The position numbers and the translations under genes were made by a program. Source: Tateyamaria sp. syn59 (GTDB lineage Bacteria; Pseudomonadota; Alphaproteobacteria; Rhodobacterales; Rhodobacteraceae). Taken from it: a stretch of 64,000 bases of DNA. The notes beneath the pieces were generated by a model, which saw nothing but the letters and a program-made list of their open reading frames with translations, had not been told where the DNA came from and did not search any database. Below, piece after piece: positions 25,896 to 28,786 of this stretch (its first letter is position 1; every line of letters starts with the position of its first letter). The DNA lies in contig NZ_VCBA01000002.1 in NCBI RefSeq assembly GCF_007995245.1, positions 124,001 through 188,000 of the forward strand. Reading direction: 5' to 3'.

Positions 25896-26765
25896 ATGGG
25901 CCTTCCCTTTGACGGCGCGATCACGGAGTTTTTCGAGACCGGCGCGCCGGATGACATTCGTGACAAGATCAGCAACGCGGACAAGGATGACATCCTGACC
26001 CCGACCTATCCTTACGCCGAACGGATGCGGCGCAAGAGTTACAAGCCCGAGATGGAGGCGCTGCAGGTCGAGTTGGTCAAGATGCAGAAATGGGTCGCGG
26101 AAAGCGGCGCGCGCATTGTCTGCGTCTTTGAAGGACGCGATGCCGCTGGCAAGGGCGGCACGATCAAGCGGTTCCGCGAAAACCTGAACCCGCGCGGCGC
26201 CCGCGTTGTTGCATTGTCGAAACCCACCGACAGGGAAGCTGCCGAATGGTATTTCCAACGCTACATCAGGCACTTGCCAACGGCCGGAGAGATCACGTTT
26301 TTTGACCGCAGCTGGTATAATCGCGGGGTGGTCGAGCATGTGTTCGGTTTTTGCACACCGGCGCAACGCGAACAGTTTTTCGTACAAGCCAAGCCGTTCG
26401 AATCCATGTTGGTCGATGATGGCGTACATGTTTTTAAATTCTGGCTGAATGTCTGCCGAGCCGAGCAATTGCGCCGCATTCTGGCCCGCGAGAACGATCC
26501 GCTGAAACAGTGGAAACTGTCGTGGATCGACGTTGAGGGGCTGAAGAAATGGGATGTCTACACGGATGCCATTCGCGAGACGCTGGAGCGTTCTCACTCC
26601 AGCCATGCGCCGTGGACAATCGTCCGCTCTGACGACAAGAAACGCGCGCGCCTGAACGCGATCCGCACGTTGCTTCACGGTCTGGATTACACGAACAAAG
26701 ACCCGCAAGCCATTGGTAAGATAAACAAAGACATCTGCGGCGGGCCGGATATCTGGGATGCCTAA
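25896..26765 (+). CDS. ppk2: Polyphosphate kinase 2 family protein
   Basis: A 289-residue PPK2 kinase that transfers phosphate between polyphosphate and nucleotides. Walker [10 protein letters not shown] is at 80-88, Walker [10 protein letters not shown] near 135-143 (Asp137), and a lid region follows ([23 protein letters not shown]). Single-domain length fits class I, members of which often phosphorylate nucleoside diphosphates. The stop overlaps the TetR gene by 8 bp, suggesting joint control. Confidence 0.93.
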
Positions 26766-27375
26766 ACGCGGTTATCACCACGGCAATCTGCGTCAGGCCC
26801 TGATCGAAGCAGCGCTTAGGCTGATTGAGGAGAAAGGTCCGACGGGCTTCACGCTGTCCGAGGCGGCGAAGCAGGCCGGCGTTACCCCTGCGGCCGTCTA
26901 TCGCCATTACGAAGGCCGCGAGGATCTGATCGCCGAATGTGCACGGCAGGGCTATGGCATCTTTGCCGATTTGATGGAGCATGCGTACGAATCCGGGCAA
27001 CCCTCGGCCCTGGCCGCGTTTGAAGCGACCGGGCGCGCCTATCTCGCCTTTGCCCGCCGGTTTCCCGGTCACTACATAGCGATGTTTGAAAGCGGGATTT
27101 CGACCAACCGTACGCCGGAACTGGCCGATGTGGTGAACCGCGCGAATACCGTGCTGGAAAAAGCCGCCGGAGATCTGTCGCAGCATATCCCCGCAGACAA
27201 ACGCCCACCTGCCTCGATGTTTTCCGCCCACATATGGGCCATGAGCCATGGGGTGGTCGAGCTGTTTGCGCGGAACTCACCGGGCAAGGCCTCTCCCTTT
27301 CCGCCCGAGGATCTGCTTGAAACCGGGATTGGTATCTATTTGCGGGGTCTGGGGCTTATTCCGGGCGACGGCTAG
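26758..27375 (+). CDS. TetR/AcrR family transcriptional regulator
   Basis: A 205-residue regulator with an N-terminal helix-turn-helix ([30 protein letters not shown], about residues 30-59) and a helical ligand-binding region with [11 protein letters not shown], typical of the TetR_C_33-like group. Its start lies inside ppk2 and its end overlaps the convergent cyclase gene by four bases. Targets unknown; autoregulation of the ppk2 operon is plausible. Confidence 0.88.
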
Positions 27376-28421
27376 CGCGCCACGCTCAGATTGCCTTCGA
27401 CATTCATCAGTTCGACCGAGCCCAGCCCCTTGATCGTGTAGCTGCCGATGTCGTCCACCTGAAAGCTGTCGATCAGATCAAACTTCATCGAAGTGGGCGC
27501 CACAATCTTCATCGGATGGGCAAAGACCTGAAGCCGCGCAGCCATGTTCACGGATGGGCCAAACACGTCATAGACATATTTCTGCACCCCAACGACCGAT
27601 CCGACCGCCGCCCCCGTCCCGAGGCCAATGCGCGCCTGCCATTTGTACTTGTGGCTTTGATTGCGCCGTTCGAGGTAGCGCAGGAACCGGACGGCACAAT
27701 TTGCAACAGCCGTCGCGTGATCCGAGGCGGGTTCGGGCATGCCCGACACGGCCAGATAGGCATCCCCGATGGTCTTGATCCGCTCCACCCCGAATTGTTC
27801 AGAGATCCGGTCAAAGGCGGTAAACACATCGTTCAACTCGCCCAAGGTCACGGTCGGGTCGTTTTCCTCTGCAAAATTCGTAAACCCGACAAAGTCGAGC
27901 ATCAGCACGGACACGTTGCGATAAAGCTGCGGTGTGACCACGCCAAAGGTCTTGTACTCTTCATAAACGGATCGCGGCATCAGGTTGAGAAGCAGCCGCT
28001 CAACACGCTCTTTTTCACGCTCCAGCGCGCGTGTGTTCCGCTCGACCATGTTCGAATAGCTTTCGATCATCTGCTCAAGCTCGCGCATGCGGGTGACGTT
28101 CTGGCACTCGGCCACGACCATCTTTTCGCCTTCGATCTCAGCCAGGGTCAGCGATACCGTGATCACCAGCGTACGCCGCTTGGGCTTGATCTGCACTTCA
28201 CCGTCAAAGCGTCCGGTGCTTTCCAGGGCATCGCGCGCAACATCTTTGAGGCTTGCAATGCTTTCGGCCACGCTGTCGCTGGTGGACGGGTCGCCGAACC
28301 ATTCTGCGATAGCGGCGTTGTGGAAATAGATGGTGAGGTCGGAGTACCGAAGAATGGCGATCCCCACGCCAATGGATTTGAGAAGGTGTTCGTTGATCGT
28401 GCTGAGCGCGGCAATGCTCAT
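27372..28421 (-). CDS. PAS-class III adenylate cyclase
   Basis: A 349-residue soluble cyclase: N-terminal PAS-like domain (about 8-112), a helical linker with LLLNLMPRSVYEEYKTFG (about 142-160), and a class III catalytic domain. Metal-binding Asp176 (VLMLDFVGFT) and Asp220 (IKTIGDAYLAVSG), substrate-selecting Lys216 and Asp285 (YVYDVFGPSVNMAARL), Asn292 and Arg296 are all present. The Lys/Asp pair predicts ATP rather than GTP as substrate. Its start overlaps the upstream truncated hemoglobin gene by four bases, so the globin is the likely input partner. Confidence 0.9.
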   Translation of the reverse strand: MSIAALSTINEHLLKSIGVGIAILRYSDLTIYFHNAAIAEWFGDPSTSDSVAESIASLKDVARDALESTGRFDGEVQIKPKRRTLVITVSLTLAEIEGEKMVVAECQNVTRMRELEQMIESYSNMVERNTRALEREKERVERLLLNLMPRSVYEEYKTFGVVTPQLYRNVSVLMLDFVGFTNFAEENDPTVTLGELNDVFTAFDRISEQFGVERIKTIGDAYLAVSGMPEPASDHATAVANCAVRFLRYLERRNQSHKYKWQARIGLGTGAAVGSVVGVQKYVYDVFGPSVNMAARLQVFAHPMKIVAPTSMKFDLIDSFQVDDIGSYTIKGLGSVELMNVEGNLSVAR

Positions 28422-28786
28422 GCGGTTGCCCTGTTCACGATCAGTGGTCGCTTGCTCTCGACCGATGCCACGACCTGGCTGATGTCGCCCTCTGACATAC
28501 CGTGTTTGGCCATCGCTTCCGCGAGAAGTTTGCCAATCTCGTCAAAGTCGGCGTCGGTGATCGGCACGGTCTGATGCACCGCTTTCAACCGGTCGTCCGA
28601 CATTGCCGATGGACCACCCATCAGGGACGAGATGAACTTGGTCTGATGGTCGATCAGGCGCGGCATGTCGATGTCGTCGAAATGATGGCCGACCTCATCG
28701 CTGTCGAGCACGAGTTCGTAAAAGGTCATCACCACACGGCTGACTGCGGAAAAGCCGCCATATCGCTCAAAAGTGCTGCTTGGCAT
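28418..28786 (-). CDS. Group 1-like truncated hemoglobin
   Basis: A 122-residue truncated globin. It opens with TFERYGGFSAVSRVVMTFYELVLDS, the usual first helices with a B10-type Tyr (residue 23). It continues with IDHQTKFISSLMGGP, the conserved E-helix/GGP turn, and has a proximal His71 in DDRLKAVHQTVPITDADF. These features fit an O2- or NO-binding heme protein. The stop overlaps the adenylate cyclase start (ATGA), so both are made from one transcript. About 170 bp separates it from the divergent acyltransferase. Confidence 0.85.
   Translation of the reverse strand: MPSSTFERYGGFSAVSRVVMTFYELVLDSDEVGHHFDDIDMPRLIDHQTKFISSLMGGPSAMSDDRLKAVHQTVPITDADFDEIGKLLAEAMAKHGMSEGDISQVVASVESKRPLIVNRATA

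Follow-up and report, generated by a model that had tools for sequence, protein, structure and literature searches.

A group 1 truncated hemoglobin gene overlapping a PAS-class III adenylate cyclase gene in Alphaproteobacteria: a candidate two-protein O2 or NO sensor

Soluble guanylate cyclase (sGC), the NO receptor of animals, is built as H-NOX, PAS, coiled coil and cyclase, the domain order of its beta chain, and truncated hemoglobins are widespread proteins whose role is mostly uncertain. H-NOX proteins, which are homologous to the heme domain of sGC, have diguanylate cyclases or histidine kinases as their targets (PMC8738867), and an O2-sensing adenylate cyclase made of one chain, HemAC-Lm of Leishmania, is named in PMC12755159. 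Globin is listed among the neighbors of the signaling helix in the accessible portion of PMC1592074, where truncated hemoglobin is mentioned in the title of a reference, and the truncated hemoglobin of Fe-oxidizing bacteria is treated with no link to a cyclase in the corresponding portion of PMC3770913. A gene pair made of a truncated hemoglobin and a cyclase is not described in the accessible portions of PMC8738867 or PMC12755159, and, in a search of open-licence PMC papers, a collection that leaves subscription journals mostly outside, no title or beginning of an abstract among the matches listed describes one; both terms occur in PMC5855569.

Such a pair lies in the window, by which is meant the whole stretch of DNA analyzed here, 64,000 nucleotides of Tateyamaria sp. 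syn59 (contig NZ_VCBA01000002.1, positions 124,001 to 188,000). Its features are the following, in window positions.

28418..28786, minus strand: gene for a group 1 truncated hemoglobin of 122 aa (Bac_globin match)
27372..28421, minus strand: gene for a PAS-coiled-coil-class III adenylate cyclase of 349 aa (Guanylate_cyc match)
28418..28421, minus strand: ATGA stop/start overlap of globin and cyclase, four bases common to both open reading frames
28098..28367, minus strand: PAS-type domain of the cyclase, residues ~19-108 (AlphaFold secondary structure; model residue 2 or 8 is the first one aligned with sGC)
27981..28097, minus strand: long helix of the cyclase (signaling helix/coiled coil), residues 109-147 (AlphaFold model; C-terminal HNOBA match below the cut-off)
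27393..27935, minus strand: class III catalytic domain of the cyclase, residues 163-343 (Pfam and AlphaFold model)

The minus-strand reading frames run from 28786 to 28418 and from 28421 to 27372, and the globin stop and cyclase start share ATGA, just as the preliminary description had it; its title spoke of a fusion, which is wrong, the genes being overlapping and encoding two separate proteins. A single-chain fusion was rejected more generally, as scanning all frames of the fetched loci gave none in which a globin match and an A2-type cyclase match occur together, and at the loci where the two genes share a reading frame, at least one stop lies between them. The four-base overlap is found in 81 of 110 pairs (counted as distinct globin sequences), and the remaining pairs range from -11 to wider gaps. 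The two genes probably encode a two-protein sensor of O2 or NO, with the globin acting in trans on cAMP synthesis.

The globin belongs to Pfam Bac_globin (PF01152; 59.7 bits, E 4.1e-16) and is the sole match to this family in its own genome; its closest solved relatives, taken as the best PDB matches, are group 1 truncated hemoglobins. Alignment with the Tetrahymena protein 3aq5 places Tyr23 at B10, Leu44 at E7, Gln48 at E11 and His71 at F8 (His47 being E10), confirming the proximal His71 and B10-type Tyr23 that had been noticed from the letters. Sequence family, proximal His, distal B10 Tyr and polar E11 are all those of group 1 truncated hemoglobins. All 110 paired globins have Tyr at B10, His at E10, Gln at E11 and His at F8, and 102 of them have Leu at E7. 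Judged from these residues, the globin is predicted to bind heme and O2 and/or NO. The distal combination of Tyr B10, Leu E7 and Gln E11 resembles that of the detoxifying NO dioxygenase HbN, an enzyme and not a sensor. This resemblance favors the main rival explanation, namely that the globin acts as an NO dioxygenase or scavenges O2/NO, that the cyclase senses some other signal through its PAS domain, and that the two are co-expressed for the same stress without contact.

The cyclase matches Pfam Guanylate_cyc (PF00211; 133.6 bits, E 8e-39) and has the residues of a class III adenylate cyclase, that is, two metal Asp, a substrate Lys/Asp pair and a transition-state Asn/Arg pair. Its catalytic set is full, with D176 and D220 (metal ligands), K216 and D285 (the ATP-type substrate pair), and N292 and R296 (for the transition state). 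Both metal Asp and the Lys216/Asp285 pair had been claimed for it before and are indeed present, as are Asn292 and Arg296. From K216 and D285, ATP and not GTP is predicted as the substrate. Across the 110 pairs, the set DKDDNR is complete in 101, two differ by K to R only, and seven are without the Asn/Arg pair. cAMP signaling is likely in the organism, since its genome has nine PF00211 matches (eight over the cut-off) and eight matches to the cNMP-binding family PF00027.

In an AlphaFold model of the cyclase from the window, built with 35 sequences (mean pLDDT 85.5, pTM 0.58), the chain opens with a helix, which is followed by a PAS-type fold, a helix of 39 residues, another helix at 150-159 and finally the cyclase domain. 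The PAS label of the preliminary description is supported by this model, whose strands and helices at residues ~19-108 succeed one another as in a PAS domain, but not by Pfam, in which no PAS match was obtained; the HNOBA family matches residues 99-154 under its cut-off. No H-NOX domain is present in the 349-aa chain, which starts at the PAS region and has Guanylate_cyc and the sub-threshold HNOBA as its Pfam matches. The top two Foldseek matches were the soluble domain of a bacterial adenylyl cyclase (5o5l and 5o5k), followed by many sGC chains aligned over >350 columns. With VIA-align 2, model residues 8-344 were aligned on residues 275-660 of sGC alpha (Z 23.0) and residues 2-346 on residues 205-609 of sGC beta (Z 22.8), both with large rmsd (9-14 A for the alpha/beta alignments). 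Because of this rmsd, and because matches to the catalytic domain only outrank the full-length sGC alignments (Z up to 26) and dominate the lists, the correspondence of the PAS region with that of sGC rests on long alignments.

Whether the two genes are paired in relatives, a check proposed in the preliminary description, was examined in family, order, class and named-genome samples, and the pairing holds in each of them. A globin match was found in 17 of the 198 genomes of the family sample and a close orthologue in 15, making 16 loci with that of the window, and the cyclase is directly downstream of the globin at 16/16; this count leaves out three remote globins (L017, L018 and L020; 24-27% identity). 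The order sample (244 genomes) gave 26 strong globin loci (E <=1e-39) in 23 genomes, with the cyclase at 24/26, the exceptions being G293, where a cyclase remnant is left, and the second globin of G382 (L249), which has no cyclase. In the class sample (337 genomes), a strong globin (E <=4.1e-32, a threshold that puts the second globin of G487, at 1e-26, outside the count) was detected in 16 genomes, and the cyclase adjoins it in 14/16, L141 and L144 being without. Reciprocally, an A2-type cyclase (E<=1e-60; weakest match 2.7e-107) is present in 15 of these 337 genomes, with the globin directly upstream in 15/15. The scan of named genomes found the cyclase at 77/80 loci, 80 having been taken of 267 confirmed. 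The cyclase is missing in Ruegeria meonggei (L062) and Ruegeria sp. EL01 (L072), and a cyclase remnant only is left in S. lacuscaerulensis (L086), while all three have an intact globin. Chance adjacency of the two genes was ruled out by these counts.

At least 12 alphaproteobacterial families contain the pair (f1, f2, f37, f41, f57, f67, f93, f95, f102, f148, f155 and f171 in the survey numbering), and the three matches found at E<=1e-40 in the phylum sample (299 genomes) are all within the same class. Its distribution is patchy, two genomes of the same genus in the order sample having no match. It also decays in places, as seen from stops inside two of the 15 class-sample cyclases (G421 and G601) and from the L019 cyclase, which is split over two frames; in G421 the globin frame is partial as well, so that the pair is broken. 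Among plasmid records, 28 had a globin match and two were inspected, of which Novosphingobium pLA3 has a cyclase adjoining the globin and that of Haladaptatus has none annotated within 4 kb. Trees of globin and cyclase (43 rows, with all eight degenerate rows kept and the others thinned at 80% identity) group the same distant loci, L218/L246, L091/L220, L221/L237 and L234/L257/L242. Pairwise distances in the two proteins are correlated (r=0.78, with 0 of 2000 shuffles as high), a value that related rows also favor. Tree agreement and distance correlation are as expected if the two genes are passed on, by descent or transfer, as one unit.

Since some globins stand without a cyclase (L062, L072 and L086; L141, L144 and L249), the globin may have a job of its own, and both the three strains that kept it and the three orphan globins speak for a scavenger co-expressed with an independent cyclase. 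However, the class-sample cyclase was never found without the globin, while other truncated globins without a cyclase are common in that sample; the four-base overlap of most pairs and the E-helix residues particular to paired globins, detailed below, also argue against it, and we hold this rival to be unlikely. The linkage data also fit a globin that is a structural or protective partner, stabilizing the cyclase or keeping NO or O2 away from it with no signal passed. An invariant ligand pocket and an sGC-like PAS/coiled-coil relay would, however, be needless for stabilization, and we find such a role improbable.

The residues Y9, F12, S16, D46, H47, T49 and K50 are found in 94-100% of the 110 paired globins versus 0-3% of 70 unpaired trHb1-type domains, and the window globin has Y9, F12, S16 and D46-H47-Q48-T49-K50. 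The side chains of E7 and E11 point to the heme, so residues 46, 47, 49 and 50 should sit on the outer side of the distal helix, and they are a possible read-out surface. The orphan globins differ at this E-helix motif, which reads DHQAQ in L141, SHQIE in L144 and EHQSK in L249. The signature of the paired globins fits a constraint exerted by the partner, but could be clade history. It is retained in the E helix of the three globins whose cyclase was lost, which is expected under partner constraint only if the losses are recent. Mutual information between globin and cyclase (Neff 45) singles out no domain.

A subset of the pairs has a cyclase that lost catalytic residues. Among 114 long-flank pairs, eight are without N292/R296, and in 6/8 a PAS histidine kinase gene is directly downstream on the same strand, compared with 0/106 of the other long-flank pairs. 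Three pairs of these loci have identical cyclase segments (two being the same place twice), leaving 111 distinct loci, eight degenerate and 103 intact, and the kinase is directly downstream in 0/103 of the latter. The association of kinase and degeneration has a p value of 1e-8, which ignores the relatedness of the loci; as the six kinase-followed loci are one clade (100/100 in the cyclase tree), the link is essentially that of one clade. L242, which has a kinase and a regulator close by on the opposite strand, and L243, in which no such kinase was found, look like separate degenerations, both with long rows in the tree. On plasmid pLA3 of Novosphingobium pentaromativorans, the trHb1 gene is followed by a cyclase gene with N changed to I and R to Q, and then by genes for a hybrid kinase and a response regulator. 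The heme-pocket residues are retained in 7/8 degenerate loci, and the eighth, L238, has by inspection DHQT and the proximal His, with Q at position 50. Upstream of the pair, two clade members have OsmC and FAD/NAD(P) oxidoreductases, and one has an alpha/beta hydrolase (Pfam). The loss of catalytic residues next to a kinase suggests, at the level of sequence, an output swap in this clade from cAMP to the histidine kinase.

It could also be that the globin-PAS complex acts mainly through a protein contact, for example with a histidine kinase, cAMP being secondary. The eight loci that keep the globin beside a degenerate cyclase, six of them with the kinase directly downstream, are in line with this, as are the kinase and regulator that follow the pair in pLA3 and the presence of a kinase of this type within the flank at 10/106 intact loci. 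Nevertheless, the catalytic set is complete in the great majority of pairs, including that of the window, and no such kinase was seen at 96/106 intact long-flank loci, which makes this explanation highly improbable. As a separate observation, the intact pairs L246, L247, L254, L255, L218, L234, L235 and L257 have an opposite-strand PAS histidine kinase (hybrid in L246) and a response regulator nearby.

Genes around the pair are less constant. In 33 chosen neighborhoods, the globin is present in 33 and the cyclase in 31, and any other gene in <=8, not counting frames that lie over the pair. Globin and cyclase being the only genes to recur broadly, a universal third member of the operon was ruled out. 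In the window, PPK2 polyphosphate kinase and TetR regulator genes lie convergent to the pair (25896-27375). Relatives of TetR/PPK2 are near the pair in 8/33 neighborhoods (seven distinct places, L031 being the same as L233), all of roseobacter type, and are absent from the other families examined. In the 110 upstream regions, scanned with FNR-, RegA- and CRP-like consensus patterns, FNR-like motifs (<=2 mismatches) numbered 16 versus ~8 in shuffles and RegA-like motifs (<=1 mismatch) 20 versus ~8, and the CRP-like consensus gave none. As these regions are related and the shuffles keep base composition only, nothing is drawn from this excess of up to about twofold.

Other arrangements of truncated globins were seen during the survey. 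In L146, L149 and L151, all whole ORFs, a truncated hemoglobin domain is inserted between the Hpt and kinase parts of alphaproteobacterial CheA-type chemotaxis kinases, for which Pfam gives Hpt, Bac_globin, H-kinase_dim, HATPase_c and CheW. L155, whose stretch begins inside the gene and in which no Hpt was seen, has two globin stretches, the second interrupting the CheW-like domain, and L148 and L157 resemble these kinases by eye. No paper on a truncated hemoglobin inside CheA was found by title among open-licence PMC papers, and the term is absent from a 2026 aerotaxis review (PMC13401364). At L231:6629-7560, an orphan globin relative (L144) is followed by an overlapping 149-aa ORF that looks PAS-plus-coiled-coil by eye, with no detectable similarity to cyclases. 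Two to three tandem group 1 truncated hemoglobin genes occur in other families of the phylum, mostly f177 (L175, L177-L182, L184-L192, L194, L196, L197, L199 and L200), and the fetched stretches of these loci contain no A2-type cyclase. At L127:1315-2862 (Pfam) and, by eye, in L018, a truncated-globin domain forms the C-terminal part of a ferredoxin-FAD-NAD reductase chain.

A sensor made of the two proteins might work as follows. The truncated hemoglobin would bind heme and O2 and/or NO, as its residues indicate, and dock on a dimeric cyclase at the PAS and coiled coil. Its ligand state would then change cAMP output through the coiled coil, as the sGC-like architecture leads one to expect. 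An AlphaFold model of globin and cyclase as a linked chain reached a pTM of 0.49, with a linker pLDDT of ~35-48, and so gave no docking that could be relied on. The pair would thus be a functional equivalent of sGC in which a truncated hemoglobin, separate but translationally coupled, takes the place of the covalent H-NOX domain and the substrate is ATP, and in one sublineage the catalytically degenerate cyclase would hand its output to the adjacent histidine kinase. That the pair is an alphaproteobacterial counterpart of sGC, with a separate truncated hemoglobin standing in for H-NOX and gating an adenylate cyclase, and that the dead cyclase of one lineage has become an adaptor to a histidine kinase, is an extended proposal that we put forward tentatively, as somewhat short of an even chance. 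A steadily linked partner enzyme makes a signaling role of a truncated hemoglobin directly testable. If the proposal is true, the sGC plan of heme sensor, PAS, coiled coil and cyclase has also been built without H-NOX, by recruiting another hemoglobin in trans, and it would offer both a gas-to-cAMP route for bacteria and a natural case of a cyclase become a kinase adaptor.

Among known systems, sGC and the partner systems of H-NOX are closer analogues than the globin-coupled sensors named in the preliminary description. In globin-coupled sensors and other one-chain globin-based sensors, among them HemAC-Lm (PMC12755159), a heme domain controls a signaling enzyme, as is proposed for the pair; however, sensor and enzyme are in one chain there, whereas the pair has a separate group 1 truncated globin. 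Other group 1 truncated hemoglobins (HbN, cyanoglobin and the Tetrahymena protein) share with the paired globins their fold family and GG motifs as well as F8 His, B10 Tyr and E11 Gln, and the paired globins differ from them by Y9/F12/S16, D46-H47-T49-K50 and a steady cyclase partner. Bacterial H-NOX proteins with a cognate histidine kinase or diguanylate cyclase are stand-alone heme sensors for another signaling enzyme, often encoded by a neighbor gene (PMC8738867), as the globin of the pair is predicted to be, but the heme protein of the pair is a Bac_globin, an unrelated fold, and its putative effector is a class III cyclase. The alignment with sGC extends through PAS, coiled coil and catalytic domain and so covers almost all of the cyclase model, and the globin gene precedes the PAS-coiled coil-cyclase gene just as H-NOX precedes these domains in sGC beta, heme sensor first. 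In contrast with sGC, the heme protein of the pair is a truncated hemoglobin on a separate polypeptide and not H-NOX, the predicted substrate is ATP, the residues not being of GTP type, and the cyclase is presumably a homodimer.
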